In this document: in pieces, positions 10,182 through 35,908 of the stretch | How positions within the stretch are numbered: the first letter of the stretch is position 1 | Layout: each line of letters starts with the position of its first letter | Origin: Neobacillus drentensis | GTDB taxonomy: Bacteria; Bacillota; Bacilli; Bacillales; Cytobacillaceae | DNA length: 64,000 bases | Direction: 5' to 3' | Assembly (NCBI RefSeq): GCF_021560175.1 | Contig: NZ_CP091110.1 | Coordinates: 2,098,001 to 2,162,000, forward strand | Position numbers and translations under genes: made by a program | Notes under the pieces: generated by a model | The model's database searches: none | The model's input: only the letters and a program-made list of their open reading frames with translations | What the model was told of the DNA's origin: nothing

Positions 10182-10281
10182 AGGAATATCCACATCATTT
10201 TGAGGAGGTGATGCTTATAGATGTGAAAATAATAGAAGGAGGTTTTAATCGTATTAATTAACTATTCTTTGGGGGAGAAAA

Positions 10282-10362: not shown

Positions 10363-10368
10363 GTATAT

Positions 10369-10390
10369 CTAAAATTAATACTAATTTTAG
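10369..10390. promoter_or_regulatory. 9-bp perfect inverted repeat upstream of the sugar-binding protein gene
   Basis: CTAAAATTA, four bases, TAATTTTAG. It lies about 105 bases before the ATG of the binding protein. An operator for an unidentified regulator is possible; no regulator gene is encoded in this operon. Confidence 0.35.
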
Positions 10391-10495
10391 CACTCATTTT
10401 TATTCTACAGTATGACAGATTCTATTACAAGGAACTGTGTTTTGGTAGAAGTATCTATAACTTTACAAAACTATTTTTGGGAGGAATTACAAATT

Positions 10496-11464: not shown

Positions 11465-11566
11465 TTGATTTCCCTCTAGTGGAGGTAAAATATGGTGCTG
11501 ATTAGGAGCACTATATTTGTATCCTAGTAAAATAGGGCTTAAAAAGAGATTTAGGGAGTGGCACTA

Positions 11567-13129: not shown

Positions 13130-14103
13130 ATACAAACTTACAAATGTCAAGTCCATCAGTAGTTTCATTCAAGGAACGGTCAAAACAGATTTTTAACCAG
13201 CTGGGCATGGTTATCATTCTTGCCTTATTAATTATAGTTATGGTTATTTTTGCACCGAATTTCACAGACTCAAGTAATATCTTAAACGTACTAAAGCAGA
13301 GTTCAATCACTGCCATTCTGGCAGCGGGGATGACTTTAGTGATATTAACAGGAGGAATTGATTTATCGGTAGGCTCAACCCTTGCATTGAGCAGTGTTAT
13401 ATCTGTATTACTATCAAATGCCGGAACTCCTCCAGTTATCGCTATGTTAGCAGGAGTTGCTGTAGGATATGTTGCAGGGGCTATTAATGGATTTTTAACA
13501 GCTGTACCTAAGTTGCCAGCCTTTATCGTGACGCTTGGAAGTATGACCTACCTGAGGGGGTTGGCTTATGTTATAACCGGCGGATATCCTGTAGTTTTGG
13601 CATCAAAGCAGTTCAAGTTCATTGGAGCAGGTGAAATTCTGGGGATCTCTACGCCTATTTATGTGATGGCAATTGTTTATATCATCATGATAGTCGTTTT
13701 AAAGTATACGATGTTCGGGAGACATGTTTATGCTATTGGCGGTAATGAAGAGGCTGCACATCTTACAGGGATTAAAGTGAATCGCACCCTGATTCATGTT
13801 TATTCCATCAGTGGCTTATTGGCTGGTGTTAGTGGCGTTGTAATGGCAGGACGTTTGTTTTCAGGGCAGCCTATGGTAGGAATAGGATTTGAGCTAGATG
13901 CAATAGCAGCTGTAGTACTAGGTGGTACTAGTTTTGTAGGGGGACGTGGCCGTATACAAGGAACGATCATTGGGGTTTTGATTGTGGCCGTGTTAACGAA
14001 TGGAATGACCTTACTTAACGTGGATTATTACTGGCAACAAGTTGTAAAAGGGATCGTAATTGTTATTGCCGTACTTCTTGATAGATTACGAAGCAGAACT
14101 TAA
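13126..14103 (+). CDS. Sugar ABC transporter permease (RbsC-like)
   Basis: A 325-residue membrane protein of the BPD_transp_2 family with roughly eight to ten hydrophobic helices. The ILTGGIDLSVGSTLALSSV segment and the FGRHVYAIGGNEEAAHLTGI cytoplasmic loop that docks on the ATPase are typical of RbsC/AraH/XylH-type permeases. It forms the channel through which the bound sugar passes. It is the last gene of the three-gene operon and a terminator follows at 14237. The transketolase-transaldolase operon a few kilobases downstream could use a pentose-type substrate, but this link is only positional. Confidence 0.92.
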   Translation: MNTNLQMSSPSVVSFKERSKQIFNQLGMVIILALLIIVMVIFAPNFTDSSNILNVLKQSSITAILAAGMTLVILTGGIDLSVGSTLALSSVISVLLSNAGTPPVIAMLAGVAVGYVAGAINGFLTAVPKLPAFIVTLGSMTYLRGLAYVITGGYPVVLASKQFKFIGAGEILGISTPIYVMAIVYIIMIVVLKYTMFGRHVYAIGGNEEAAHLTGIKVNRTLIHVYSISGLLAGVSGVVMAGRLFSGQPMVGIGFELDAIAAVVLGGTSFVGGRGRIQGTIIGVLIVAVLTNGMTLLNVDYYWQQVVKGIVIVIAVLLDRLRSRT

Positions 14104-14236
14104 ATTAATTCTATTTCAAATAAAAAGCCTGTAGAGTAACCTTCTGGATTAATAAATTCTAAAATTTAATTCGCATGAGCTTTTTTAAGAAATCTAAAAG
14201 TATAACTTTATTAAAAATTTTGGATGGTTAATAAAT

Positions 14237-14275
14237 AGGGGTACCCAAGTGAAATATTATTCATTGGGTACCCCT
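14237..14275. terminator. Bidirectional terminator between the sugar ABC operon and the ABC-F gene
   Basis: A 12-bp perfect stem AGGGGTACCCAA / TTGGGTACCCCT around a 15-base loop, lying between two convergent genes. It could end transcription from both sides. Confidence 0.8.
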
Positions 14276-14285
14276 TAATTTTCAT

Positions 14286-15839
14286 TTAAAACACTTTCGT
14301 AGTCCAATCCTCACAATTCCAAATATCAGTCGCAATTTCACGATAGAAATCAGGTTCGTGGGATACCATCAAGATACTTCCGCGATATGCCTTTAAAGCA
14401 CGCTTCAATTCTTCTTTTGCGTCCACATCCAAGTGATTGGTAGGTTCGTCTAGAATTAATAAATTCGTTTCTGTGTTAATAATTTTACACAAGCGAACTT
14501 TGGCTTTTTCGCCACCAGAAAGGACTTCGACTTTACTTTCAATATGCTTCGTCGTTAATCCACATTTTGCAAGAGCAGCACGGACTTCAGCCTGATTCAT
14601 ACTTGGGAACTCGCTCCAAATCTCTTCGATACAAGTGTTGTAGTTGGCCTGTTTCACTTCCTGCTCGAAGTAACCGATGTGTTGATACTCACCACGTTCC
14701 ACTTTACCGGAAATTGGATCAATCAGCCCAAGAATACTTTTTAAAAGTGTTGACTTACCAATACCGTTTGCACCTACGAATGCAATTTTTTGCCCGCGTT
14801 CCATTTTCAAATTCAGAGGGCGGGAAAGTGGTTCATTGTAACCAATAACAAGGTCTTCAGCCGTGAAAATATAACGACTAGCTGCACGAGCTTCTTTGAA
14901 GTTAAACTCTGGTTTCGGCTTCTCTTTCCCTAATTCAATTACTTCCATTTTGTCGAGCTTCTTCTGACGAGACATCGCCATATTACGAGTCGCAACACTT
15001 GCCTTGTTACGAGCAACGAAATCTTTCAAATCAGCAATTTCTTGTTGTTGACGCTTGTAAGCAGACTCTAGCTGTTGCTTCTTCATTTCATGAATTTTTA
15101 AGAAGTTATCATAGTCACCAACATAGCGATTCAACTCTTGGTTTTCCATGTGATAGATCAAGTTAACAACATTGTTCAAGAATGGAATATCATGTGAAAT
15201 CAAGATAAATGCATTCTCATATTCCTGTAAATAGCGCTTCAACCATTCGATATGCTGTTCATCCAAATAGTTCGTAGGCTCGTCTAGTAATAGGATTTCA
15301 GGCTTTTCTAGCAACAATTTAGCTAGCAGAACTTTCGTACGCTGCCCACCGCTGAGATCATCTACATCTCGATCGAGTCCAACATCGTCTAATCCTAAAC
15401 CACGAGCAACTTCCTCAACTTTTGCATTAATTCGATAGAAATCATTACTATCTAAAGTTTCTTGTAGCTCGCCAACTTCTGCAAGTAATGCATCGATATC
15501 AGCACCTTCATCACCCATTTTTGCGTAAAGTTCATTGATTTCTGATTCAGCATCAAAAAGATATTGAAAAGCAGAACTTAAAGCTTCACGCATTGTTGTA
15601 CCTTTTTGAAGTACAGCATGCTGATCTAAATAACCAACACGAACTTTTCGTGACCATTCCACTTTTCCCTCGTCGGGCTGTAACTTCCCAGTCACAATAT
15701 TCATGAAAGTAGACTTACCCTCACCATTTGCCCCGACTAGTCCAACATGTTCTCCTTTTAAAAGTCGAAACGACACATTATTAAAAATCGCACGATCACC
15801 GAAACCGTGGCTTAAATTTTGTACGTTTAATACACTCAT
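14286..15839 (-). CDS. ykpA: ABC-F family ATPase (YkpA/YbiT-like)
   Basis: A 517-residue soluble protein with two ABC ATPase domains and no membrane segment. The first domain has GANGEGKST, LSGGQRTK and LLLDEPTNYLD; the second has GANGIGKST, LSGGEKAK and LILDEPTNHLD. A charged coiled linker between them (about residues 245-315) is the part that reaches into the ribosome in ABC-F proteins. Members act on translating ribosomes, and some give antibiotic protection; this one most resembles the housekeeping YkpA/YbiT group, so I do not infer resistance. The start has AGGGG seven bases upstream. The gene stands alone. Confidence 0.88.
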   Translation of the reverse strand: MSVLNVQNLSHGFGDRAIFNNVSFRLLKGEHVGLVGANGEGKSTFMNIVTGKLQPDEGKVEWSRKVRVGYLDQHAVLQKGTTMREALSSAFQYLFDAESEINELYAKMGDEGADIDALLAEVGELQETLDSNDFYRINAKVEEVARGLGLDDVGLDRDVDDLSGGQRTKVLLAKLLLEKPEILLLDEPTNYLDEQHIEWLKRYLQEYENAFILISHDIPFLNNVVNLIYHMENQELNRYVGDYDNFLKIHEMKKQQLESAYKRQQQEIADLKDFVARNKASVATRNMAMSRQKKLDKMEVIELGKEKPKPEFNFKEARAASRYIFTAEDLVIGYNEPLSRPLNLKMERGQKIAFVGANGIGKSTLLKSILGLIDPISGKVERGEYQHIGYFEQEVKQANYNTCIEEIWSEFPSMNQAEVRAALAKCGLTTKHIESKVEVLSGGEKAKVRLCKIINTETNLLILDEPTNHLDVDAKEELKRALKAYRGSILMVSHEPDFYREIATDIWNCEDWTTKVF

Positions 15840-16058
15840 TATTTAACCCCTTATCTAATATCATATGTGGATATCTTACTAGATTTTGGCTGCTTTTTCT
15901 ATCTAGAAGTTATTTTTTTGAAAAATGTAATTTTATCTTTGGGCCAAATTGAAATATGTCCCATTTTAAATAACTTGGGTGTATATAAATTGGATAAAAG
16001 TCTATTATACAACCGAACCTGGAGGCAAGATATGTGTTATTCCCATTTGGTAATAACT

Positions 16059-16086
16059 GTACAAAAAATGAAAGAATTGGTTGAGT
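16059..16086. repeat. Dispersed 28-base repeat, copy 2
   Basis: Matches 9726-9753 at 27 of 28 positions in the same orientation. No other IS sequence is obvious beside this copy. Confidence 0.6.
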
Positions 16087-16120
16087 CTTACTATCTTTCT
16101 ATTAATTTATACTATAACAA

Positions 16121-16150
16121 AAATGGCATGCGTCAATTCGCATGCCATTT
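16121..16150 (-). terminator. Terminator of the transketolase-transaldolase operon
   Basis: A 12-bp perfect stem AAATGGCATGCG / CGCATGCCATTT with a six-base loop, followed on the minus strand by a T-rich stretch, about 75 bases past the transaldolase stop codon. Confidence 0.8.
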
Positions 16151-16223
16151 CATGTGTCAATTTATCCCCGTGAACTATTTAAGAGAACCCTTTAGGATAA
16201 ACATGTCGTGTTTTTTGTTTCAC

Positions 16224-16892
16224 TTAGTTTTTAAGAGTATTTTCCCAATCAGCAGCAAATTTTTCAATTCCTTGATTAGTTAGTGGATGTTTAGAAATTT
16301 GCTCAATGACTGAAAATGGAATGGTTGCAATATGTGCACCTGCCATTGCTACACGAGTTACATGATCTGGATGACGAACAGATGCTGCAATTATTTGTGT
16401 GTCAAAATGATGAATGCGGAACAAATCAGCTATTTTTGATACTAATTGGACACCGTCTTCAGAAATATCATCTAAGCGGCCTAAGAATGGAGATACATAC
16501 GTTGCACCGGCACGAGCTGCTAAAAGTGCTTGGTTTACTGTGAAGATAAGGGTGACATTTGTTTTCACACCTTTATCGGCAAGATAACGGCAAGCCTCTA
16601 AGCCAGCTAAAGTCATCGGAAGCTTGATGGTGATTTTTTCATCTCCGCCGTTAATTTTAATAAGCTCTTCAGCTTGGGCAATCATTTCATCAGCAGTAAG
16701 GGCATCTGGAGTTACTTCAGCGGAAACGGACTCTACTTCTGGAACCGCCTGGCAGATTTCTTCAATCCGGTCTTCGAATTTTACACCTTCTTTTGCAACT
16801 AGGGAAGGATTAGTTGTAACACCTGATAAAACACCAATTTTATAAGCCTTTTTAATATCTACAAGATTAGCAGTATCAATAAATAATTTCAT
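16224..16892 (-). CDS. tal: Transaldolase (small TalC/MipB type)
   Basis: A 222-residue TIM-barrel class I aldolase of the short transaldolase / fructose-6-phosphate aldolase family. It starts [10 protein letters not shown] and has the [13 protein letters not shown] motif. The Schiff-base lysine is in ITIKLPMT (Lys90), and NVTLIF and [11 protein letters not shown] follow. In Bacillus relatives such enzymes act as transaldolases of the non-oxidative pentose phosphate pathway. The ATG has GGAGG upstream. It lies 23 bases after the transketolase stop and is surely co-transcribed with it. Confidence 0.92.
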
Positions 16893-16915
16893 CGTATTTT
16901 TCCTCCATTTTAAGA

Positions 16916-18904
16916 TTATAGTAGACTTTTAGCCGTACGAACCACATTTTCAGTCGTAAATCCAAATAGCTCCATAACAGCAGCGCCCGTTCCTGAAGCA
17001 CCGAATGTTTCAATGGATAATACTTTGCCTTCTAATCCTACATAACGCTCCCATCCAAGAGAGATACCCATTTCGAGTGCCACACGCTTTTTAATAGAAG
17101 CAGGGAGGACAAGCTCTTTATACTCCTTCGGTTGACGATCAAACAATTCCCAGCTTGGCATAGCGACGACGCGAACCGATACATTTTCTTTTTCAAGTTC
17201 AGCTTTTGCGTTAGTGGCTAATGACACTTCCGAACCGGTTGCAATCAGGATAACCTTTGGCTGGTCATTTGTTTGCGTTAATACGTAAGCTCCCTTTGAA
17301 AGGTTGTCTAAGCCCGCTTGTGTTTCTTCGAATACAGGCAGGTTTTGACGGCTCAGCACCATTGCAACTGGACCATCTGTTTTTGTTAGTGCATATGCCC
17401 AAGCGCTTGCTGTTTCATTTGCATCTGATGGGCGAATGACGGTTAGCCCTGGGATAGCACGAAGAGAGGCTAGCTGCTCAACTGGCTCATGAGTTGGTCC
17501 ATCCTCACCAACCGCAATCGAATCATGCGTAAATACATAAGTGACAGGAAGCTTTTGCAAGGCTGCCAGACGAATGGAGGGTCTGAGATAATCATTGAAA
17601 ACAAAGAATGTGCTAACAAATGGTTTTACCCCGCCATGAAGAGCTAAACCATTGCCAGCCGCACCCATTGCGTGTTCCCGGACACCAAAATAGATATTCC
17701 GTCCACTAAATGATTCTACTGCGAATGCTGCGTTTTCCTTTATATCTGTCATGGTGGAGTGGGAAAGGTCCGCACTTCCTCCAAAAATAGAAGGAACTGA
17801 TTTGACAAAATGGTTAATAGCCTCTCCGCTGGCTACACGAGTTGAGATGGTTTTACCTGTTTCAAATGTCAGGATGTCTTCCGCATTAATTAAAACTTCT
17901 CCCGTGATCGCTTGTTGCAGTTCTTTTGCTAATTCAGGGTATGCCTCTTGATAAGACTGGAATAATGCATTCCATTGTTGTTCTTGACCCATTCCTCTTT
18001 GTTTTAGCTCTTCAAAATGGGCTTTAACTTCTTCTGGTACAAAGAAATCCTCTTCATAGTGCCAGCCATATACCTGTTTAGTTGCACGGGCTTCTTCTGC
18101 TCCAAGTGGATTACCATGTGCCTTGTTTGTTCCTGCCACTTTGGGACTTCCAAAACCGATTGTGGTTCTAATTTCGATTAAGGTTGGTTGTTCTGTATTT
18201 TGTTTTGCTAAGGTAATAGCTTTTGAGATTTCAGCCACATCATTGCCATCTTCTACTCGTAAATATTGCCAATGAGCAGATTCTGTTCTTTTTTGAATGT
18301 CTTCTGAAAAGGAAAGGTTTAATTCACCGTCCAAAGAAATATCATTGGAGTCATATAATGCAATTAATTTTCCTAGTTTCATATGACCGGCCATAGACAT
18401 GGCCTCATAAGAGACGCCTTCCATTAAGTCTCCATCGCCCACTAAAGCATATGTATAATGGTCAATTATAGAGTGTCCATCCCGATTGAATTTTCCAGCT
18501 AAATGCGCTTCCGCCATCGCCATTCCGACTGCATTGGCAATCCCTTGTCCTAAAGGCCCAGTGGTTGCTTCAACACCATCTGTGTGACCAAATTCAGGAT
18601 GACCAGGTGTTTTGCTATTAAGCTTTCTAAAACCTTTTAAATCTTCTAAAGATACATTGTACCCAGTTAAATGAAGCAAACTATATAACAAGCTAGATCC
18701 GTGTCCTGCAGAAAGAATAAATCGATCCCGGTTAAACCATTTTGCATTGGCAGAATTATGATTTAGATGATTCGCCCAGAGTGCATAGGCCATTGGAGCA
18801 GCCCCCATAGGCAGGCCTGGATGACCGGAATTAGCACTATTGATTGCGTCAATTGATAAGGTACGAATTGTATTTACAGCTAGTGTTTCAATACTATTAT
18901 TCAT
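16916..18904 (-). CDS. tkt: Transketolase
   Basis: A 662-residue thiamine-diphosphate enzyme that moves two-carbon units between sugar phosphates. [16 protein letters not shown], the ThDP-binding [19 protein letters not shown] to DSNDISLDG segment, the catalytic [19 protein letters not shown] and the C-terminal phosphate-binding domain are all intact. The start at 18904 follows AAAGGAGG; a longer frame to 18946 has no ribosome site. With tal it makes a self-contained non-oxidative pentose phosphate pair, probably a second set beside housekeeping copies, under the divergent DeoR regulator. Confidence 0.95.
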
Positions 18905-19010
18905 CTTTTTTTCCTCCTTTAATTTCGTGTGAAAAATAGGTAACAATTTTCTTGTTTTTGCTTCTTTATGCTAGTTTTTCCGTGTTTGAGAATATTTTAT
19001 CTCCATAAAC

Positions 19011-19092
19011 AAGAAAAAACAAGAAAAAATTTGCCGTTTTTTTGAAAAAAATTGGTGAATTCAAGAAAAAACTATATAATATAAGAAAAAAC
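19011..19092. promoter_or_regulatory. Phased direct repeats, candidate DeoR operators
   Basis: AAGAAAAAA followed by C or T occurs at 19011, 19021, 19063 and 19083, that is at intervals of 10, 42 and 20 bases, close to whole helical turns. All copies sit between the divergent tkt and deoR starts. DeoR-family repressors often bind several short direct repeats, so these may be the operators of both genes. Confidence 0.45.
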
Positions 19093-19120
19093 ATGCAAAA
19101 ACACGGAGGCTGGCACTGTT

Positions 19121-19870
19121 ATGCTTAGAAAAGAACGACAAAGCGAAATTTTAAAAATACTTGAAAAAGAGGGGAAAGTCGTTGCGAAAGAATTAAGCAT
19201 AAAATGGGATGTTTCCGAGGACACCATTAGACGAGATTTAAGAGAAATGGATTCATTAGGTCTTCTTAAAAGAGTACACGGCGGGGCATTTCCGGTATCT
19301 GCGAGCGCTTTAACCTATTCTGAAAGAACGGAAGAAAATATAGATGCAAAAAAAGAGTTAGCCTTAAAAGCGGTTAAGATGATTAAAGATGGACAAGTTC
19401 TTTTAATAGATGGAAGTACAACCAATCTTTTTCTGGCTCAAGAAATTCCAATGGAGTTTAAAGGGACCATTATCACGAATAGTCCCTCTATTAGTTTGGC
19501 GTTATCAAAACATCCCAATACAGATATCATCCTTTTGGGTGGAACCTTTTTTAAGGAATCTTTTGTCACTGTCGGATTAGATGTCATTGAAGTGCTTAAA
19601 AACATTAGAGTCGATCTCTGTTTTTTAGGAGTGTATTCCTTGCACCCTGATTTTGGTATCAGCATTCCTCATATAGAAGAGTCTCATGTTAAACGTCAGA
19701 TGATTAAAAGTTCAAATAAAATCGCCACCTTGGTAACAAGAAGTAAGCTTAATACCATTTCCAATTACTTAGTGGGCCCTGTTTCAGAACTTGATTACTT
19801 AATTACGGAAGACGGTCCACTAAGTCATAATTTAAATAAGTATATGGAATTCGATATTGAAATCATTTGA
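19121..19870 (+). CDS. DeoR/GlpR family transcriptional regulator
   Basis: A 249-residue sugar-phosphate-sensing repressor. The N-terminal winged helix shows the family signature around VSEDTIRRDLREMD and GLLKRVHGGA. The C-terminal DeoRC domain has the DGSTTNLFLAQ phosphate-binding motif near residue 94. It is divergent from tkt-tal and very likely controls that operon in response to a sugar phosphate. GGAGG lies 11 bases before the ATG, slightly far. A hairpin follows about 100 bases downstream. Confidence 0.88.
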   Translation: MLRKERQSEILKILEKEGKVVAKELSIKWDVSEDTIRRDLREMDSLGLLKRVHGGAFPVSASALTYSERTEENIDAKKELALKAVKMIKDGQVLLIDGSTTNLFLAQEIPMEFKGTIITNSPSISLALSKHPNTDIILLGGTFFKESFVTVGLDVIEVLKNIRVDLCFLGVYSLHPDFGISIPHIEESHVKRQMIKSSNKIATLVTRSKLNTISNYLVGPVSELDYLITEDGPLSHNLNKYMEFDIEII

Positions 19871-19967
19871 CTATAGTTAAGCACCTATGCCTTTGAGGGG
19901 ACAATAGGAATGCATTAAAGTCCTAGAAAAGAAGATTCGCTATCAACTTAATCAATTATTAATCAAG

Positions 19968-20005
19968 AAAAGGGTATGCCTCCATTAATTTAGGCATACC
20001 CTTTT
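19968..20005 (+). terminator. Terminator downstream of deoR
   Basis: A 14-bp perfect stem AAAAGGGTATGCCT / AGGCATACCCTTTT with a ten-base loop, about 100 bases after the deoR stop. Confidence 0.8.
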
Positions 20006-20222
20006 CTAAATAAGTCCTATTATTAGCAAAGAATACCATTATAAGATTATCTAAAACAATATGACAGTATTTTTTGTTTTCTAAGCCTTCATGAAAAAAT
20101 TTTACATAAAATATCTTTAATTTCAGGATTATGCTCAGATTACCGTAGAATTATCTGTTTAACTTAAAGTTTGTTCGATTGTTGGCAAATTACTAAATTA
20201 AATAGTTTGGAAAAAGCAGAAG

Positions 20223-20246
20223 AACCCTTGCGTTGCAAGGGTTTTT
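20223..20246 (+). terminator. Isolated terminator hairpin
   Basis: AACCCTTGC, GTT, GCAAGGGTT followed by TTT. No gene lies between it and the previous terminator, so it may be left from a lost gene or end a small RNA. Confidence 0.6.
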
Positions 20247-20370
20247 ATTTGAACCAGGTCATAATGCTATGATAAAGAATTGCATCTAATTTTTAACCTA
20301 AAAAGTAAAATCTAAGTGTAATAAAAGAAAAAATATAATGAAAATATATGTAAAAAGAAGAAAAGTATAT

Positions 20371-20384
20371 TTATTTTCTGAAAA
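20371..20384. promoter_or_regulatory. Motif shared by two promoter regions, copy 1
   Basis: TTATTTTCTGAAAA lies 57 bases before the ATG of the gene at 20441. A near-identical TTATTTTCTGAGAA lies at 23223 ahead of the binding-protein gene. The half-palindromic TTTTCTGAAAA could be an operator for the regulator encoded between them. Confidence 0.35.
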
Positions 20385-20440
20385 TGATAAGGTAAAATCA
20401 AAATAGATAGAAAAATAGTTAAAATGAAAGGAGAATAATA

Positions 20441-20902
20441 ATGTTTGATAATTTTTTAATTAGAAAAGATAGTCTTGAAAATGTATATAAGGATGATAAA
20501 GCGATAGGATTTAAATTTGCAGTCCGTATAGCAGATTATAGAGGTTGTTTCTTGTCATTGCACAATGGATATTATATTGAATGTGATGGGGTCGAATATC
20601 CAAAAGATGTACAAACATTTGAAATAAATGGTAAAGAGCCAAGGGATTTTGAAGAAATTAAAAAGTGCGTTTGGGAACATTGGAATTATGATGATGAAGG
20701 GTATGTTTATGTCGAAAAAGAAGGTGGGTTAACACCTGGTCTGCATACTATTATGTTTCAACAATCGATTCTAGCAACATATGGTTATATGCCATGGGAT
20801 GAAGAATGGTTAAAAAATCCACCTGTTCCGGGATATGGGGCAGGTTCAGGTAAAACAGCAAATATTTGTTCATTTAATTTAGAATTACAGGAAAGGAGAT
20901 GA
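20441..20902 (+). CDS. C-glycoside deglycosidase beta-subunit-like protein (DUF6379)
   Basis: A 153-residue protein with no signal peptide. It resembles the small beta subunit of two-component C-glycoside deglycosidases (DgpC/CarC type, DUF6379): an N-terminal MFDNFLIRKDSL, a beta-rich middle with LSLHNGYYIECDGVEYP, and a TPGLHTIMFQQSILATYGYMP segment. In characterised systems this subunit pairs with a sugar-isomerase-like TIM barrel to break the C-C bond of 3-keto C-glycosides. The next gene, four bases downstream, encodes exactly such a TIM barrel. AAAGGAG lies upstream of the ATG. The family assignment is from memory of sequence features, not a search. Confidence 0.65.
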   Translation: MFDNFLIRKDSLENVYKDDKAIGFKFAVRIADYRGCFLSLHNGYYIECDGVEYPKDVQTFEINGKEPRDFEEIKKCVWEHWNYDDEGYVYVEKEGGLTPGLHTIMFQQSILATYGYMPWDEEWLKNPPVPGYGAGSGKTANICSFNLELQERR

Positions 20903-20906
20903 TCGT

Positions 20907-21968
20907 ATGTCTATTAAAAGAGGGGTCTCACTATATAGTTATCAGCAAGCTCAATTTTTTAAACAAATGAACTGGAAGGATATGATTAAGGAGGTTCACG
21001 AACATCTTAAAACAGATGGTATTGAGATTATTGATGAAGCCATTATTAGAGATTATCCATTTCCATCTGAACAGTTTATATTTGATTGGAATAATGAAAT
21101 GGCAAGATATAATATGAATGCAGTCACAATGGATGTCTATTTAGATGTACACCAATTTAGGGATCATATTATGACTCATAGAGAGGCGGCAGAAAGATTA
21201 AAAAATGATATAAAAATTGCTGCTAAATTAGGGTTTAAAAATGTGCGTCCGCTTTGTCTCGTACCAATAGAAGTAATTGAGATGGCACTTGAAACGGCAG
21301 AAAAATATAATGTGAGGATTGGAAAAGAAATTCATGCACCACTTCCTATTAAGCCAGGAACAAGGGTACAACCTAAAACAGGAATGGCATCAGCCCTTGA
21401 TTTTAGAATGTCAGAGCAAATTATTGAACTAGCAAATCGTACTGGAAGTAAACATGTTGGATTAGTACCTGATTTTGGGATTTTCCAACACTCACCATCT
21501 CAAGTATCCATTGATTATGCAAAGAGACAAGCAAATATTCCGGAAGCGATTGATTTTCTTTTAGAAAACAGTAAAAATTATAGTTTAGACGATATTGGTA
21601 CAGTATTAAGTGAAAAATATCCTACTCATAAAATTGATCCGGGAACGATTGAAAGAATGAGTCTCCATGAATCTTCAGCAAATCCTGAAGATATTATAGA
21701 TATTATCCCATACATCGTAAGTATGCATGGGAAATTCTACAATATGACAGAAATACCAGGTAAACCAGGATGTTATGAAGATTTAGCTATTGATTATGAA
21801 ACTCCTATTAAATATTTAAAGGAAAATGGATTCAAGGGATATATCAATTCTGAATATGAAGGACAAAGAGATCAGCAAGATAGAGGTATTGAGTTTTTGG
21901 CTGATGAGGTTGACCAAGTAAGACGTCACCAGGAGATGCTTTCAAGATTAATTGGTGAAGAGATATAG
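20907..21968 (+). CDS. Sugar phosphate isomerase/epimerase-like TIM barrel, probable deglycosidase alpha subunit
   Basis: A 353-residue xylose-isomerase-like TIM barrel (AP_endonuc_2 superfamily). It starts MSIKRGVSLYSYQQAQFF, and metal-ligand positions are plausible in DGIEIIDE, GKEIHAP, GLVPDFGIFQ and INSEYEGQRDQQ. The AAGGAGATGATCG ribosome site and the four-base gap to the preceding gene indicate a pair. Together they match the alpha/beta architecture of C-glycoside deglycosidases. The oxidoreductase that normally makes the 3-keto substrate is not in the window. An ordinary sugar epimerase role is the main alternative. A terminator follows at 21988. Confidence 0.7.
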   Translation: MSIKRGVSLYSYQQAQFFKQMNWKDMIKEVHEHLKTDGIEIIDEAIIRDYPFPSEQFIFDWNNEMARYNMNAVTMDVYLDVHQFRDHIMTHREAAERLKNDIKIAAKLGFKNVRPLCLVPIEVIEMALETAEKYNVRIGKEIHAPLPIKPGTRVQPKTGMASALDFRMSEQIIELANRTGSKHVGLVPDFGIFQHSPSQVSIDYAKRQANIPEAIDFLLENSKNYSLDDIGTVLSEKYPTHKIDPGTIERMSLHESSANPEDIIDIIPYIVSMHGKFYNMTEIPGKPGCYEDLAIDYETPIKYLKENGFKGYINSEYEGQRDQQDRGIEFLADEVDQVRRHQEMLSRLIGEEI

Positions 21969-21987
21969 GATGTATTGATCATACCAT

Positions 21988-22022
21988 GAGGGGGCCGTTT
22001 GAAAATGGGCCTCTATTTTTTT
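21988..22022 (+). terminator. Terminator after the deglycosidase-like pair
   Basis: A GC-rich stem formed by GAGGGGGCC and GGGCCTC around a ten-base loop, then TATTTTTTT. Confidence 0.8.
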
Positions 22023-22133
22023 GCAAATAATCGTTATTGAAATCCAACCTTTATAACTGGAAAGTGTTGTGGTACTATAAGTTCAAAGCTGGCTGAAAAA
22101 GCCTGAGTTATTTACAGAAAAACAGGTGATAAA

Positions 22134-23132
22134 ATGGTTACTGTTATAGATGTTGCGAAGAGAGCAGGGGTATCTGTTGCAACGGTTTCTCGTGTTTTAA
22201 ATAGTAATTACATAGTAACAAAAGAGAAAAAAGATAAAGTATTAAAAGCGATTGAGGAGCTTGGATATGTTCCTAAAACCACCGTCCGAACTGAAAAAAG
22301 TAATGAAAAAAAAGTAATTGTTGTCCTTGCAGCAGCTATCATTCATGATATTATTGCTGGAATACAGGATTTTGGAGTACAACATGGTTATGAGATCATG
22401 ATAAGCTATCATGCAAGTGAAGCAAAAAACTCACAACCCTGGAGCTTCTTACCAAAAGGGCAATTAGGTGGGTTAATCATTTTAAATATGCTATTTAATG
22501 AACAAGAGCTTCAAGAAATAAGTGATACCCTTCCAGTTGTGCAATGCAGCCAGTATACCTCTATCCCAAATGCATATGCAGTTACCGTAGATGATGTAAA
22601 TGCTGCTTATCATGCAGTCTCTCATTTAATTGAGGCAGGAAAAAGAAAGATTGCTTTTGTTGGTATGGGAATTGAAGAGGGAGAAGGTTGTATTTCCACA
22701 AACTTTTCAAAAGATCGATTTATAGGTTATCGTAGAGCATTGGAAGACAACGGTATCCCATTTAATCCACAGTTAGTGAAGTATAGTGACAACAGTTATG
22801 AGAGCGGTGCCCAATCGGCGATGAAATTGATGGAACAACAAATTCCATTTGATAGTGTTTTCTGTGTAACCGATAATTTGGCTGTAGCTTGTTTAAATAC
22901 GTTTAAAGATGCTGGTTATCGAATTCCTGAGGATATTGCCGTATGTGGTTTTGATAATCAAGAAATTTCGGAAATGACCAATCCAAAGCTAACAACTGTT
23001 GATCAACCTTTTTATGAAATTGGGTACGAATCAATGAGAATGCTTGAAAGTATTATCAAAGGTGAAATTTCTACGGGTAGAAGAGTATTAATTGAACATA
23101 AACTTCTTAAACGAGGATCAACCGTTTCATAA
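22134..23132 (+). CDS. LacI family transcriptional regulator
   Basis: A 332-residue repressor. The N-terminal helix-turn-helix and hinge TVIDVAKRAGVSVATVSRVLN is canonical. The rest is a periplasmic-binding-protein-like effector domain ending ELTTVDQP-type (here PKLTTVDQPFYEIGYESMRML). It sits between the deglycosidase-like pair and a sugar-type solute-binding protein and is likely to control both, in response to a sugar or glycoside. A terminator separates it from each neighbour, so it has its own promoter. Confidence 0.92.
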   Translation: MVTVIDVAKRAGVSVATVSRVLNSNYIVTKEKKDKVLKAIEELGYVPKTTVRTEKSNEKKVIVVLAAAIIHDIIAGIQDFGVQHGYEIMISYHASEAKNSQPWSFLPKGQLGGLIILNMLFNEQELQEISDTLPVVQCSQYTSIPNAYAVTVDDVNAAYHAVSHLIEAGKRKIAFVGMGIEEGEGCISTNFSKDRFIGYRRALEDNGIPFNPQLVKYSDNSYESGAQSAMKLMEQQIPFDSVFCVTDNLAVACLNTFKDAGYRIPEDIAVCGFDNQEISEMTNPKLTTVDQPFYEIGYESMRMLESIIKGEISTGRRVLIEHKLLKRGSTVS

Positions 23133-23165
23133 TCAATCAAACCTTAATTAAATATGATTAAAAGC

Positions 23166-23198
23166 CTGGATATATCTCTTATCCAGTTTTTTTTTTTT
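23166..23198 (+). terminator. Terminator after the LacI gene
   Basis: CTGGATA / TATCCAG stem with a seven-base loop and twelve T residues. Confidence 0.85.
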
Positions 23199-23222
23199 AA
23201 TAATTAGTGAATTCATTTGCTT

Positions 23223-23236
23223 TTATTTTCTGAGAA
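23223..23236. promoter_or_regulatory. Motif shared by two promoter regions, copy 2
   Basis: TTATTTTCTGAGAA, 13 of 14 bases identical to 20371-20384. Its presence before both the deglycosidase-like pair and this transporter gene suggests common control. Confidence 0.35.
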
Positions 23237-23346
23237 CAATGAAAAAAAGATGAAATCAAAAGAAAATACCGTGAAAATTTATGAAAAAACTGAAAATAAC
23301 ATATTGTTTTACTGAAAACCAGATGATATATTAGATGTAAAGCTGC

Positions 23347-23360
23347 ATAAAACGCTTTCA
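23347..23360 (+). promoter_or_regulatory. cre-like site upstream of the solute-binding protein gene
   Basis: ATAAAACGCTTTCA matches 12 of 14 cre consensus positions including the central CG, 75 bases before the ATG. It fits catabolite repression of a sugar uptake gene. Confidence 0.55.
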
Positions 23361-23434
23361 ATCCAGGGGGGTGGCAGTTCCTAATAGCTTAGACGATCAA
23401 AAGGATAAAAAATAATTAGTTATGGGGGTAAAAA

Positions 23435-24958
23435 ATGAAAAAGAAATACAGCTTCTTCTCTATCATTATTTCTATCATGATCCTTCTAGCTGCCTGTAGT
23501 AACAACACCAAGACCTCAAGTGAAAACAAAAAAGATCAAAATGCTAATAAAGATAGCAAAACAGTCGAATTAACCATGGCCTTTTTGGCATTTGGTCCTC
23601 CGCCAAAGGATTTGGCATTGGTTCAAACTGAAATTAATAAATTGACGAAAGAAAAAATTAACGCAACAGTTAAATTACTGCCTATTAATGCCAGTCAATA
23701 TACACAGCAAACGAATCTGATGTTATCAAGTAAAGAAAAACTAGATCTACTTATTACAGGTAACATACCAGGTTTTCTAGATTATTCTGGGCAGTCTGTA
23801 AGGGGACAGCTTCTCCCATTAGACCAATTGATTGAAAAATATGGGAAAGGTATATCTGTTTCTCTTGGAGAAAAATTTATCAATGCGGGTAAAATTAACG
23901 GAAAAACCTACGGTATTCCATCAATAAGAGATTTGGCTGGAAATCGAAGTCTAATCATGAGAAAAGATTTAGTAGATAAATATAAGATCGATAGCAGTAA
24001 AATAAAATCCTTAGATGACGTAGAAGCCGTTTTAAAAACAATTAAAGAAAATGAACCTGGGGTTTCTCCATTAATGCCTGGACAAGTTGGGGCTGCAACA
24101 ATTGTTGATGGACTATTTCTTCCAGAGGGTGATTCGCTAGGGGATAATCTTGGTGTGCTTCTAGATTCATCCCAATTAAAGGTTAGTAATTATTACCAGT
24201 CTGACGAATATTCAGAACTAGTAAAAGTGGCAAGAAAGTGGTCCAAAGCAGGATATATTTTACCTGGTGCAGCTACAAACAAGGAATCCGCAGAATCCCT
24301 AATGAAGGCAAAAAAAATATTCGCCTTCATGGGAAGTTCAAAACCGGGAATTGATGGTCAAGTATCAAAGAGTGTTGGATCAGAAGTAGTAAGTGTACCA
24401 TTAACACCAGTCTCAACCGACACTCAAAAAGTAACTAGTTTTATGTGGGCAGTTCCACAGTTTGCAGAAAATCCTCAAAAATCCGTGGAATTACTTAACT
24501 TATTGTATTCCGATAAGGATTTAGTCAATTTGATTGATTGGGGAATTGAAGGAAAACATTATGTGAAAACAGACACCGGTGTGATTGATTACCCGCAGGG
24601 TGTTGATGCAAACAGTACAGGTTATGGGTTAAATTCAGGTTTTCAATTCGGTAATCAATTTTTATCCTATATCTGGAAAGGTGACTCTCCTGATCTTTGG
24701 AAAGAGATGGATTCCTTTAATAAAAACGCAAAAGCATCCAAAGCTCTTGGTTTCTTATTTGACTCTTCACCGGTGAAAACAGAAATTGCTGCCGTATCAA
24801 ACGTTATAAATCAGTATAAGGGCGCATTGGAAGATGGTATGGTTGATCCAAAAACAGAATTGCCAAAATTCCAAGAAAAACTAAAAGCTGCCGGTATTGA
24901 TAAGATTATTGAAGAAAAGCAAAAGCAACTTGAAAAGTGGGAAAAACAGAATAAATAA
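23435..24958 (+). CDS. Extracellular solute-binding lipoprotein (LplA-like, DUF3502 type)
   Basis: A 507-residue lipoprotein with a basic hydrophobic signal ending in the lipobox LLAAC followed by a charged linker. The mature part starts KTVELTMAFLAFGPPPKDLALV, and the C-terminal QKQLEKWEKQNK helix is typical of the large binding proteins that serve oligosaccharide or glycoside importers. Such proteins normally stand beside two permease genes (LplB, YtcP/LplC types). Here none is present: a terminator and a different gene follow. It may use permeases encoded elsewhere or be a remnant of a larger locus. The ATG has GGGGGT upstream. Confidence 0.85.
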   Translation: MKKKYSFFSIIISIMILLAACSNNTKTSSENKKDQNANKDSKTVELTMAFLAFGPPPKDLALVQTEINKLTKEKINATVKLLPINASQYTQQTNLMLSSKEKLDLLITGNIPGFLDYSGQSVRGQLLPLDQLIEKYGKGISVSLGEKFINAGKINGKTYGIPSIRDLAGNRSLIMRKDLVDKYKIDSSKIKSLDDVEAVLKTIKENEPGVSPLMPGQVGAATIVDGLFLPEGDSLGDNLGVLLDSSQLKVSNYYQSDEYSELVKVARKWSKAGYILPGAATNKESAESLMKAKKIFAFMGSSKPGIDGQVSKSVGSEVVSVPLTPVSTDTQKVTSFMWAVPQFAENPQKSVELLNLLYSDKDLVNLIDWGIEGKHYVKTDTGVIDYPQGVDANSTGYGLNSGFQFGNQFLSYIWKGDSPDLWKEMDSFNKNAKASKALGFLFDSSPVKTEIAAVSNVINQYKGALEDGMVDPKTELPKFQEKLKAAGIDKIIEEKQKQLEKWEKQNK

Positions 24959-25004
24959 GATGTTAGACTTAATTAGGCGTGGAAATTGACGGTGCAAAAA
25001 GAGA

Positions 25005-25040
25005 AGAGCTGTAGCCTCAGGGGTTACAGCTCTCTTTTTT
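25005..25040 (+). terminator. Terminator after the solute-binding protein gene
   Basis: AGAGCTGTA / TACAGCTCT stem with a short loop, followed by CTTTTTT. Confidence 0.85.
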
Positions 25041-25189
25041 ATAGTAGAATACTAGAATGATTTTCTTCTTTGGTAATGTATTGAAAATTCGGAATATTTA
25101 TGTTAATTTTTTATTGGTGTTACTATTTATAGAATTGTGGAAGGAAGTGATGCCAATTTTATCTGCGGCGATTTTTTGATATCAAAAAA

Positions 25190-25203
25190 TAAAAGCGTTT
25201 TCA
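25190..25203 (+). promoter_or_regulatory. cre-like site upstream of the acyl-CoA synthetase gene
   Basis: TAAAAGCGTTTTCA matches 13 of 14 cre positions. Carbon catabolite repression of AMP-forming acyl-CoA synthetases by CcpA is well known in bacilli. Confidence 0.6.
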
Positions 25204-25402
25204 TAAACTGTGTACCTAACTCATTCACTAGTCATTTTAAAAGGGAGTTATATTTTTCTATAAATTTTGTCCTAGTTTTCTCTATAACTTGGCTTATATA
25301 TGAATATATATGAAGGATAAGTGTTTTGATTTTTCAATAGTGCAACAGATGAAAACGACAACTAAGATAGGTTTCTTATATTTCATTTATAGGGGGATTC
25401 AG

Positions 25403-27370
25403 ATGGATGTTAGTGGAATTTTAAAAGTAGTTGCAGAAAGTAAACTGGTTAATCCAAGTCAAGAAAAACAATCAAATACCTCAATTGGGAGCAGTGAAGC
25501 CTTTCAAGAACTACTTCAAAAATCCCAACAAGATCCCGAAGCTTTTTGGAACGATGTCGCAAAAGAACTAGTTTGGTATGAACCTTGGCGAAAAACAATC
25601 AGTGGAAGTCTTCCAGATTTTCGTTTTTTTGAAGGCGGTATTAGTAACCCTTGTATTAACTTACTCGACCGCCATGTTGAAAACGGTGCTGGAAATCGCA
25701 CGGCTCTCATTTGGGAGGGAGAAAACGGAGACACGAAGTTTTTTACATATAATATGCTGCTAGCTGAAGTGAATCGTTTTGCTAATGTCCTTCGTTCCTT
25801 CGGTGTGAAAAAAGGAGATTGTGTGGCGATTTTCCTTCCTAATTTGGCCGAAGCCATAATTGCTGTTCTCGCATGCTTTCGGATTGGGGCTATTTACAAT
25901 ACCGTATTCTCAGGTTACTCTGAAAAGTCTTTGAAGGACCGACTTGTTAGCTTTGAGCCAAAGATTATTCTCACGGCGGATGCTACCACAAGAAGGGGAA
26001 ACAAGGTTGGCTTGAAGGAAAAAGTGGATGCGGTCATTCCATATATTCCCTCTATTGAAGCGGTGATTGTGGTAAATCGCCTAAACACGGAAATCATAAT
26101 GAAAGAAGGACGCGATTTCTGGTGGGAGGAACTAACAAAAAAGGCAAGTATCCATTGTGAACCTGAGAGGCTAGATGCGAATGAGTATGGAATTGTGTTC
26201 TATACAAGCGGTACAACAGGTAAGCCAAAGGGCGTTGTTCACTCGGGTATGGCCTTTGTCACCCAAAATTACATCTATAGCAAATATCATATGGATCATC
26301 ATGATGACGATGTCTTCTGGTGTACGGCGGATATTGGCTGGTTAACGATGCATATTTGGGGCATTGCGGGTGCTCTAGCAAATGGGGTCACCACGGTCGT
26401 ATATGAAGGCGCAATGGACTATCCAACAAAGGACAGATTTTATCAGGTGATTGAGAAATACCGTGTCAATAAATTGTTTACCGCTCCAACGGCATTGCGA
26501 ATGTTAAAGAGCCTGGGGGAGAAGGTTTTGGATCAATTTGATTTATCATGCCTGGATGTCATTTCCCTAGTTGGTGAACCTTTTGATCCAGAATCATGGC
26601 AATGGACATATGAAGTACTAGGTAAGAAAAAGATATGTGTCAATAATACATGGGGACAAACGGAAACGGCCGGTTGTCCAATTGCTGGTGCAGCATGGTT
26701 AACCCCAATGAAACCTGGATCAGCCGGAAAGCAATTTTTAGGGGCTGAAATTGCAGTAGTAGATGAAGAGGGAAATCCAGTGAAACCGGGGACATTAGGG
26801 AATTTAATTATTAGAAAGCCATTTCCAATGCTTTGCCGCACGCTATGGAAGGAACCTGAGCGCTACATTTCCTCTTATTTTAGCCAAGTCGAAGGCAGCT
26901 ATTTTGCTAGTGATTTGGCTCTCATTGATGAGGATGGCTATGTATGGGTCGTTGGTCGTTCTGATGATGCTTTCAATGTTGCCGGGCATCGCTTAAGTAC
27001 AATGGAAATTGAAAGTGCAGTGCTTGAATGTGAAGGGGTTGCTGAAGCCGCTGTCATTGGTGTCCCGGATGAAATTAAAGGAGAGGTACCTCTCGTATTT
27101 GCCCGAGTAAATGATACTTCGCTAGGGACAGAACAATTGAAAGAAAAAATAAATGAACGGATTATCCAGCTTATCGGAAAAATTGCTCTGCCCAAAACAA
27201 TCATTTTCACAGAAACACTTCCAAAGACAGTTAGCGGAAAAATCATGCGCCGCTTATTAAAGGAAATTTTTATGTCAGGACATGTTTCAGGAGACATCAC
27301 AGGACTTGAAGATCCAGCAACAGTAGCGCAAATTCAGACGATAATTAATGAAAGGTATACAGTAAAGTAA
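25403..27370 (+). CDS. AMP-forming acyl-CoA synthetase (acetyl/propionyl-CoA synthetase-like, altered acyl pocket)
   Basis: A 655-residue member of the Acs/PrpE branch of ANL enzymes, which activate a carboxylate with ATP and CoA. The N-terminal Acs-type cap is followed by YTSGTTGKPKG (P-loop-like motif), the NNTWGQTETAGCPIAG motif, and PKTVSGKIMRR with the catalytic, acetylatable lysine near the C-terminus. In acetate-specific Acs the motif reads WWQTETGG; here the second tryptophan, which closes the acyl pocket, is glycine, as in medium-chain synthetases. The substrate is therefore probably larger than acetate. The ATG at 25403 has AGGGGG upstream; an in-frame ATG at 25310 would add 31 unsupported residues. 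Confidence 0.85.
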   Translation: MDVSGILKVVAESKLVNPSQEKQSNTSIGSSEAFQELLQKSQQDPEAFWNDVAKELVWYEPWRKTISGSLPDFRFFEGGISNPCINLLDRHVENGAGNRTALIWEGENGDTKFFTYNMLLAEVNRFANVLRSFGVKKGDCVAIFLPNLAEAIIAVLACFRIGAIYNTVFSGYSEKSLKDRLVSFEPKIILTADATTRRGNKVGLKEKVDAVIPYIPSIEAVIVVNRLNTEIIMKEGRDFWWEELTKKASIHCEPERLDANEYGIVFYTSGTTGKPKGVVHSGMAFVTQNYIYSKYHMDHHDDDVFWCTADIGWLTMHIWGIAGALANGVTTVVYEGAMDYPTKDRFYQVIEKYRVNKLFTAPTALRMLKSLGEKVLDQFDLSCLDVISLVGEPFDPESWQWTYEVLGKKKICVNNTWGQTETAGCPIAGAAWLTPMKPGSAGKQFLGAEIAVVDEEGNPVKPGTLGNLIIRKPFPMLCRTLWKEPERYISSYFSQVEGSYFASDLALIDEDGYVWVVGRSDDAFNVAGHRLSTMEIESAVLECEGVAEAAVIGVPDEIKGEVPLVFARVNDTSLGTEQLKEKINERIIQLIGKIALPKTIIFTETLPKTVSGKIMRRLLKEIFMSGHVSGDITGLEDPATVAQIQTIINERYTVK

Positions 27371-27657
27371 TTTTGATAAGTCAATTGAATTAATACATTT
27401 ATTATAAAAGATTTTGAATGGGATGTAGGTAGTTACCTAATGTGTTTGCAACGGTATTCACAATTTTGGCCTTATTACTTGTCATTTTGTGCTACTGGTA
27501 AATCACCGATGGGAGATAATTAGGTAGGCATCGCGTTATCGTGCGATGGTGAATAAAGGTGGAATTGAAAGGAAGTGCCTTTTTATGACCAACGAGCGCG
27601 TGTACAAGAGGGCGTTTTCGAGAGTTAATAACAATCAATTAATTTGGAGGTAATTAG

Positions 27658-28407
27658 ATGAATATAAAATTTGATCCAAATAACGTCGTTATTAAACTCT
27701 GTATGAGTGGGATGGGATTAGAGGAGAGTGGAAATATTGAAGATGCAGTCAAGGTGTTTCATAAAGCATGGCACGAAGCAACAGACGACTATGAAAGATT
27801 TATTGCTGCTTATCATTTAGCTCGTCAACAAAAGAGTATTACAGACAAATTAAAATGGATGGAAACATCTCTAAAGTGTGCTCTAAAAATAAATGATGAT
27901 AATGTGAAGAGTGCATACTCAACGTTATATTTAAACATTGCCAAATGTTATGAGGAGTTGTGTGATACTGAGAATGCAAAAAGAAATTATGAATTGTCAA
28001 ATTCATTTAAGGGTGAATCTTCTGATGTAGGACCATTTTACCATGGGACAAAGGCAGATTTGAAGGTTGGTGATTTACTAACAGCAGGTGGAGATTCAAA
28101 TTACAAACCTGGACTTAAAATGAACCACATTTATTTCACTGCTATTGTCAATGGCGCAGGACTTGCAGCAGCTTTAGCAAAAGGAGAAGGAAGAGAACGA
28201 GTTTATATAATTGAACCAACAGGTGAATTTGAAAACGATCCAAATGTTACTGACAAAAAATTTCCTGGTAACTTAACACGTTCTTATCGTTCAAAAGAAC
28301 CTTTAAGAATTATTGGTGAAGTAACAGAATGGGCGAAATTGACAACTATAGAGCGACGCGAATGGCACGAAAATTTAGCTAAAAACAAGGGCGAAATTAT
28401 TAACTGA
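27658..28407 (+). CDS. arr: Rifampin ADP-ribosyltransferase Arr with N-terminal TPR-like domain
   Basis: A 249-residue two-part protein. From residue 125 it matches Arr: GPFYHGTKADLKVGDLL, HIYFTA, YIIEPTGEFENDPNVT, KKFPGNLTRSYR and EPLRIIGEV. Arr inactivates rifampin by ADP-ribosylating it with NAD. Stand-alone Arr proteins are about 140 residues; here about 118 helical residues precede it, with spacing like tetratricopeptide repeats (EESGNIEDAVKVFHKAWHEA, then YLNIAKCYEELCDTENAKRNYEL). This arrangement occurs in other Bacillaceae as far as I recall. GGAGG precedes the ATG. It may confer intrinsic rifamycin resistance, while the TPR part suggests a protein partner or a second role. Confidence 0.88.
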   Translation: MNIKFDPNNVVIKLCMSGMGLEESGNIEDAVKVFHKAWHEATDDYERFIAAYHLARQQKSITDKLKWMETSLKCALKINDDNVKSAYSTLYLNIAKCYEELCDTENAKRNYELSNSFKGESSDVGPFYHGTKADLKVGDLLTAGGDSNYKPGLKMNHIYFTAIVNGAGLAAALAKGEGRERVYIIEPTGEFENDPNVTDKKFPGNLTRSYRSKEPLRIIGEVTEWAKLTTIERREWHENLAKNKGEIIN

Positions 28408-28637
28408 ACATATTTCAAGATGTTAAAATGCAAATGACTTTTTGAAAATAGAATAACAATGATTAATGACCAACTTAGCATTGAATTTATGTTTGGAATC
28501 GAAATAAGATTTCTAAGCTATCTGAATCTTGCATACAGAGAAGTAGGCGGGTATTACCAGCCCAAGATAAAAGAAAATATTATTGAACTAGTTCCTGCGT
28601 ATCTAGTTTCTATTTGCTGAGTTTGCAAGGTATCCTT

Positions 28638-28692
28638 CACCAGCACCCCATGAGTTGACACATACACTCCGTACATGTAGAGTGCGTGTCGC
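28638..28692. repeat. Dispersed ~55-base hairpin-forming element, copy 2
   Basis: Begins CACCAGCACCCCATGAG and ends GTGCGTGTCGC. Same layout as 9786-9839, with arms GACAC...CACTC and GAGTG...GTGTC that can form a hairpin. Confidence 0.45.
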
Positions 28693-28794
28693 ATTTAGTT
28701 TTAAAACATCTTTATAACTACTTCCTATATTCTACTCCTGAGACAAGGAGAATCCTCTTGTACCATCATGCTGCTTGACAGTTGTATTAGAAAT

Positions 28795-28843
28795 AAAAAC
28801 GATGAAACTAGGGTTTATGATGAACATGGTTTCATCGTTTTTT
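28795..28843. terminator. Terminator-like hairpin
   Basis: AAAAACGATGAAAC and GTTTCATCGTTTTT arms around a 20-base loop; symmetrical, so direction is open. No intact gene adjoins it. Confidence 0.65.
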
Positions 28844-29062
28844 ATTCTTTGCTTAGTCTGAGATCGTTATTTCGGCTTCTATGTCATAGAAACGTGTTGC
28901 TGTACCAACACCCAAGAAGTCAACTTTGTTACGTTCCTTCTGTTTTGGAAAAGTTATTTTTAACAGTACTGAATGGGCTATGAGTATGCACGTTGATTGC
29001 CATTTTAACCATTAATATTAAGTTAAGGGGTTGGAGAAACTAATCAGAAAGGAGTGGATAAG

Positions 29063-35056: not shown

Positions 35057-35057
35057 A

Positions 35058-35882: not shown

Positions 35883-35908
35883 TAGGAAAATTTTGGAGGT
35901 GGACTGGA

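Follow-up and report, generated by a model that had tools for sequence, protein, structure and literature searches.

A probable C-glycoside deglycosidase gene pair from a separate branch of the family in a Bacillus-type genome

C-glycosides, in which a highly stable carbon-carbon bond joins the sugar to the plant compound, withstand ordinary glycosidases, and C-glycoside deglycosidases (CGDs) determine which plant C-glycosides microbes use. The metal ligands reported for AgCGD2 are Glu147, Asp179, His269, Lys271 and Glu305, and His149 is described as the base, with Glu307 assisting (Mori et al. 2021, PMC8563793). For PuCGE, Asn144 is said to activate the catalytic histidine, and Tyr39 of the beta subunit is reported to be specifically required for C- and hardly for O-glycoside cleavage. 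The Y39F variant shows a loss of about 1.2 x 10^4-fold (over 99%) on 3-keto C-glucosides and of only 2.4-fold on one 3-keto O-glucoside (Bitter et al. 2023, PMC10628242). The gut bacterium Catenibacillus scindens is reported to cleave puerarin as well as flavone 6- and 8-C-glucosides, and to carry dgpA apart from dgpBC (PMC11170127).

The stretch of DNA analysed here (the window) is 64,000 nucleotides long and corresponds to G000:C1:2098001-2162000 of a host genome made of a single contig of 6.26 Mb. A preliminary description had placed two open reading frames four bases apart at 20441-21968, and their coordinates, spacing and order were confirmed. The features used below are the following.

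20441-20902, + strand: gene of the putative CGD beta subunit (153 aa, ATG start, PF19906 CGDB)
20537-20539, + strand: codon for Tyr33 of beta, the counterpart of PuCGE Tyr39beta in the alignment to 7bvr_B
20762-20866, + strand: beta C-terminal block, residues 108-142 (QQSxLAxYGYMPWDEEWxKNPPVPGxGAGxGKT-like), conserved in the branch and its sister clade
20890-20898, + strand: Shine-Dalgarno-like GGAAAGGAG of the alpha gene, inside the 3' end of the beta gene, from direct reading of the sequence
20907-21968, + strand: gene of the putative CGD alpha subunit (353 aa, ATG start, TIM barrel, PF01261)
21351-21398, + strand: branch-specific alpha insert, residues 149-164, just past the predicted metal ligand Glu141 and catalytic His143, after the EIHAP motif
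22134-23132, + strand: LacI-family regulator (Pfam), whose synteny with the pair is retained in the sister species (L012)
23435-24958, + strand: DUF3502 solute-binding lipoprotein (PF12010, E 1.4e-30)

A gap of four bases (20903-20906) separates the beta stop from the alpha ATG. In Pfam searches, alpha matched PF01261 (42.7 bits against a cut-off of 31.1) and beta matched PF19906, CGDB (E 7.5e-36, 122.8 bits against a cut-off of 27.6). The latter family carries the name DUF6379 in several PDB and plasmid records, so that the small protein is indeed DUF6379-like, as first proposed. An NCBIfam scan of both subunits gave zero matches above cut-off. A PF19906 beta gene adjoins a TIM-barrel alpha gene, an arrangement taken here as one mark of a CGD. 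We collected 29 related loci, some of them on short contigs, from one scan of genome contigs. In 28 of the 29, the beta match lies immediately 5' of the matched alpha; the exception is L032, where the sole beta match sits before the second alpha.

When the PDB was searched with alpha using phmmer (E <= 0.01), all eight sequences retrieved were CGDs, the best being 8qvc_A (E 7e-47); the nearest PDB relative is 33% identical. The AlphaFold model of alpha has a pLDDT of 94.1. Its top 16 Foldseek matches are CGD chains, with E values from 8.2e-29 (8qvc_A) to 9.3e-20, and the first other barrel appears at 5.6e-12. Named epimerases appear in the list at E 3e-8 or weaker. The preliminary assignment of the barrel to a C-C-bond-breaking type of enzyme is upheld by these rankings, and the contrary placement among simple epimerases failed.

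The AgCGD2 metal ligands were mapped, by motif and order and not by alignment, to E141, D189, H274, K276 and E316 of alpha. AgCGD2 His149 and Glu307 correspond to H143 and E318, and their spacing relative to the metal Glu residues is the same in both proteins. All seven residues (E141, H143, D189, H274, K276, E316, E318) are invariant in 40/40 aligned alphas of several classes, in an alignment (A1) from which near-duplicate or truncated alphas were dropped (those of L016, L017 and L036, and the first one at L021). In an alternative alignment of 45 alphas, one row is gapped at four of the seven catalytic or metal sites. The position of PuCGE Asn144 is occupied by Ala144 in alpha (Ala in 29 of the 40 aligned alphas) and, counting from Glu301, that of PuCGE Tyr303 by Gln320. 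Both substitutions would count against full equivalence of alpha with PuCGE. In the model, viewed without superposition on a solved lid, the segment that links the Asp189 strand to the His274 strand contains helices at 190-193, 199-208, 212-221, 227-237, 245-251 and 260-269. These would be compatible with a four-helix lid domain, which is common, though not universal, on CGD alpha subunits.

With beta as query, seven of the eight phmmer matches in the PDB at E <= 1 come from CGDs, as beta chains or as a beta-alpha fusion, and the eighth is an aldolase (E 0.089). The AlphaFold model of beta has a pLDDT of 88.9, and its first 17 Foldseek matches, which are all of those at E <= 0.001, are CGD chains. 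Judged by Foldseek on the predicted models, the folds of both subunits are nearest to solved CGDs. Tyr33 is invariant in 36/36 aligned betas, in an alignment (A2) that leaves out the branch betas of L016, L017, L019, L035 and L036 and the first of L021. Direct support here comes from the family assignment, the predicted fold, the key residues, the pairing of the genes and the related pairs in a proven C-deglycosylator. From these sequence comparisons, the pair very probably encodes a C-glycoside deglycosidase, that is, a Mn2+-type heteromeric 3-keto-C-glycoside lyase.

The CGD family is known; as far as our searches show, what is new here is a branch without a solved member or a description in the literature. 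A literature search for a laboratory study or description of this branch, with subscription papers mostly outside its coverage, returned none. All 29 branch rows carry the alpha insert, with a length of 7-17 residues (at least 13 residues in 27 of them), and it is absent in the 11 other rows, sister clade among them. In the beta block 108-142, the three rows of the sister clade have 22-25 of the 35 residues identical, and the figure falls to 1-5 for eight rows from other classes; one branch row, L038, deviates from the block. PDB profile matches for beta stop at or before profile position 131.

In a tree of 44 alphas (short row L036 dropped; branch alphas of L024, L025 and L037 absent through automatic ORF picking), alpha groups with those of Bacillus sp. 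USDA818B3_A and Clostridium puniceum (fork support 98/93), the order among the three not being settled. The rest of the branch containing them consists of Clostridia. Three pairs carried on plasmids, those of Niallia, Pantoea piersonii and Novosphingobium resinovorum, make up the sister clade (joint fork 100/99). The remaining CGD classes fall outside branch and sister clade, and the deeper order is unsure because several rows of these classes have long branches.

The two subunits differ in conservation. Within branch and sister clade, identity was higher for beta than for alpha in 30 of 31 comparisons, which represent 31 of the 45 possible pairs among ten chosen members and are not independent; within three other CGD classes this was so in 0 of 7, with one tie. 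We infer that beta is the more constrained subunit, probably for one shared aglycone. With its beta subunit and its active-site insert, the branch lends itself to a clean test of how each of them affects the choice of aglycone.

What the activity, metal, partner enzyme, substrate and LacI regulation may be here is suggested by the mechanism published for related enzymes. By analogy, a DgpA-type Gfo/Idh oxidoreductase encoded at a distant locus would oxidise the C3-OH of a plant C-glucoside. The resulting 3-keto sugar would be bound at the alpha metal, held by Glu141, Asp189, His274, Lys276 and Glu316, and His143 would remove the C2 proton with the assistance of Glu318. The beta subunit would close the aglycone pocket, where Tyr33 would stabilise the ionised ortho or para phenol. 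The aryl carbon would then leave by beta-elimination, to give the aglycone and 2-hydroxy-3-keto-glucal.

Our best guess is that the substrate is most likely a flavone-type C-glucoside. The branch alphas of C. scindens, found at two loci (L020, L030), are 78, 71 and 67% identical to alpha, and the betas 81 and 71% identical to beta. At L020, a flavone-reductase (FLR) homologue lies 3' of two branch alphas (7d38, E 2.6e-118; this PDB code occurs once in the flavone reductase paper, PMC7862272). FLR-like genes lie near 5 of the 29 pairs; four of these five share about 30% identity with the C. scindens homologue. Such proteins are common, with matches in 15/18 genomes and up to 10 per genome, and by a rough estimate about one FLR-like neighbour would occur by chance among 29 pairs. 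As proof of a flavone substrate, the FLR neighbour was rejected, weakened by this abundance and by the identities of about 30%; we keep it as moderate evidence. Puerarin and carminic acid, whose derivatives had first been put forward as examples, were not adopted as substrate because the branch differs from the enzymes for these two compounds. As a separate observation, two Clostridium species share a trio of genes beside their CGD pairs (L013:2277-6810 and L014:11703-16253), for a 2Fe-2S/pyridine-nucleotide oxidoreductase, a NuoF-like protein and an FLR-like flavoprotein (Pfam on the L014 copies only). The trio is possibly an electron supply for an FLR-like reductase.

Other readings of the substrate were weighed. 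A broader one joins several of these points and is, taken as a whole, rather unlikely. In it, the pair would belong to a separately specialised branch of C-glycoside lyases, marked by the insert and a long beta, in which the beta subunit with its conserved tail would recognise the substrate, one widespread plant C-glycoside other than puerarin or carminic acid, maybe of gallate type (bergenin). Gut Clostridia, Bacilli and aerobic Proteobacteria would have this compound in common, and the pair would spread between phyla as a bare two-gene cassette that different 3-oxidases can serve.

Another aglycone class, such as gallate-type (bergenin-like) C-glucosides or xanthones, is an unlikely but non-exclusive variant of the preferred explanation. 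It would fit the branch-specific alpha insert and beta tail and the stronger conservation of beta than of alpha (30/31 against 0/7), and aromatic genes do accompany pairs of the sister clade. On Novosphingobium plasmid pSA2 a lactonase gene comes after the pair, and further on begin the genes for a VanA-type oxygenase (at about 6 kb) and a gallate dioxygenase (at about 7 kb); an aromatic-acid symporter is encoded about 8 kb on from the Niallia plasmid pair. However, the sister clade has no insert, and the Novosphingobium aromatic genes are situated beyond a LysR gene on the opposite strand. In addition, the clearest neighbour link of the anaerobic branch is the flavone-reductase homologue, and no aromatic genes were found beside the window pair among the window ORFs scanned. 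The bergenin idea draws on sister-clade neighbours only, and we know of no lyase for bergenin. In full, the N. resinovorum pSA2 locus (L056:4547-17113) holds the pair, a GMC oxidoreductase and the lactonase, then the VanA-type oxygenase, a PDR/VanB-type reductase and the gallate dioxygenase, a set that hints at methoxylated gallate-type C-glucosides. The GMC gene was considered as a C-glycoside oxidase and not adopted as such, its best PDB matches being fructose dehydrogenase large subunits (E 5.9e-32).

A 3-keto O-glucoside as natural substrate, with C-glycoside cleavage minor or absent, would make the pair an O-glycoside beta-eliminase. PuCGE is reported to cleave the 3-keto forms of O-glucosides as well as of C-glucosides, and plants are said to contain O-glucosides far more commonly (PMC10628242). 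The O-glucoside 3-keto-phlorizin is described as decaying slowly without enzyme, at 8.6e-6 per s (PMC10628242), so that an enzyme would be useful, and the aglycone side of the branch is altered by the alpha insert and the beta tail. We nevertheless consider this reading quite improbable. Alpha has the CGE-type metal residue Glu141 where AtOGE, the Agrobacterium O-glycoside beta-eliminase, has His, a beta subunit is present whereas AtOGE is without one, and the tyrosine specific to C-glycosides is kept in 36/36 betas. Moreover, the 3-keto O-glucosides of daidzin, genistin and apigetrin are reported to lose their sugar spontaneously (PMC12724307). An AtOGE-type identity (His as first metal ligand, no beta) was set aside, Glu141 and a beta gene being present. 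Finally, an isomerase or epimerase of sugars (or sugar phosphates) aided by an accessory protein is scarcely credible: PF01261 covers such enzymes and relatives are publicly annotated 'sugar phosphate isomerase/epimerase' or 'xylose isomerase', but 16 CGD chains precede the first other barrel (5.6e-12), epimerases follow at E 3e-8 or weaker and a PF19906 partner gene is present, and a simple epimerase was rejected since fold and sequence ranking both favour CGDs.

If the pair is a C-glycoside deglycosidase, a 3-oxidase would be expected from the proposed mechanism, and the preliminary description had pointed to a Gfo/Idh oxidoreductase elsewhere in the genome. A DgpA homologue was indeed found at G000:C1:2374427 (7xr9, E 6.2e-172), 256 kb from the window pair. 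A search of the genome with a DgpA-type Gfo/Idh protein gave 25 places, none of them in the window; a second homologue is at 1.52 Mb, and further Gfo/Idh genes are present. PF19906 matches four sites of the genome: the window pair and three near 2.376-2.389 Mb. The three further pairs are of the DgpBC class (7bvr_A, E 4.8e-122), which has the first DgpA homologue beside it, the DfgAB class (7bvs_A, E 1.4e-116) and the P581a DgpB1C1 class (9m3b_A, E 6.6e-148). This second CGD region (L006:13471-17009 and L007:2443-9841; G000:C1 about 2.373-2.390 Mb), with three pairs of three classes and the DgpA homologue, also contains genes for a second TIM barrel, ROK, GH43, COesterase and MFS proteins. Together with the window pair it makes four CGD classes in one Bacillus-type genome. 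A genome of this type with four divergent pairs, one of them closely similar to a clostridial cassette, represents a different kind of host. In a congener (G004:C41:131168-131872), a DfgA-class alpha match is in two pieces with an in-frame TAA in each, and this copy looks broken.

The LacI regulator and the binding protein noted earlier beside the pair are both present; the latter, first described as glycoside-type, proved to be of the DUF3502 type and has no adjoining permease genes. It is possibly a component of an importer. A full DUF3502-type importer, with the best permease match in the genome, is located at about 1.544-1.548 Mb, and its binding protein is 45% identical to that of the window. 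Among the 29 related loci, a binding-protein relative was found in 12; both permeases, and likewise a Gfo/Idh protein (8 at >=60% identity), were also found in 12, the query's own locus being included in these last two counts. Such co-occurrence supports a pathway of import, oxidation and cleavage. The LacI protein, to judge from synteny, possibly regulates the pair and/or the binding protein. In the window and the sister species, no shared palindrome (LacI operator) was found upstream of pair, LacI gene and binding-protein gene. A promoter scan was uninformative (25 sites, against 25.7 expected in shuffles).

Some other genes were recorded. A carboxylesterase is encoded near the CGD pair in three of the 29 branch loci (L012:6903-8246, L014:16540-17901, L039:16012-17367), and another near the genome's own DfgAB-class pair (L007:3882-5207). 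At a guess, this recurring enzyme may strip acyl groups from acylated glycosides. Further along the window, 27658-28407 encodes a protein with a rifampin ADP-ribosyltransferase (Arr) domain at residues 127-225, preceded by an N-terminal part of roughly 120 residues with weak TPR matches only (E 0.002), which makes it longer than is usual in Arr proteins. Malonate decarboxylase genes (alpha subunit, MdcE-type subunit) occupy 33392-37871, accompanied by a GntR/FCD regulator at 31840-32487.

The origin of the pair was examined by DNA comparison. The match to C. puniceum covers 20423-21975 at 87.2% identity, and within window positions 10000-30000 no other match of more than 200 bases to the C. 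puniceum locus was found. The match to the sister Bacillus is 7.2 kb long (87.7% DNA identity). Alpha shares 93% identity with its counterpart in the sister Bacillus, 91% with that in C. puniceum and 86% with that in C. caldaquaticum; for the best transketolase matches in these organisms the values are 96, 55 and 57%. Any CGD-like match was seen in 11 of 61 congeners, and the branch pair in 2 of 61, own genome counted; judging by their matching contig coordinates, the second carrier and L012 are probably one genome. Among 397 genomes sampled from the order, the branch pair (E 1e-70) was found in one, the host itself. Horizontal acquisition is likely because the 87% DNA match is confined to the pair and because the pair is rare in genus and order. 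Sequence evidence makes a Clostridium-like donor most likely; the direction, from Clostridia, is suggested by the tree placement of the pair among Clostridia.

Overall, the pair can be set beside five described systems. AtOGE would share the Mn2+ TIM-barrel beta-elimination of 3-keto glucosides; as described (PMC10628242), it differs in a sequence unrelated to CGEs, the lack of beta subunit and lid, and a His in place of the first metal Glu. EuCGD/DfgAB of Eubacterium cellulosolvens (7bvs, 7dre) would have the same chemistry, and a pair of its class is encoded elsewhere in the host genome. Its alpha is short (290-aa chain) and about 26% identical, and the DfgAB-class copy of the host has the gene order alpha-beta, whereas the window pair is beta-alpha. 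PuCGD/DgpBC of the gut strain PUE (7bvr, 7exz, 7drd) is a beta-alpha heteromer with the same metal and catalytic residues and the Tyr39beta equivalent; however, alpha is about 26% and beta about 24% identical, the beta tail differs, and the own-genome row of the DgpC class (L006) is without the alpha insert. In addition, strain PUE has dgpA in the same operon, whereas the DgpA homologue is distant from the window pair. Among solved alphas, that of the Deinococcus aerius CGD (8qvc, 8umc) comes nearest both in sequence (E 7e-47) and in fold (E 8.2e-29). It is 33% identical and has no insert, and the beta chain of this CGD counts 123-125 aa as compared to 153 here. The DgpBC-type pairs of C. scindens (L020, L030) belong to the same branch as the window pair; L020 differs from it in that a single beta match goes with two alphas and an FLR homologue is present.
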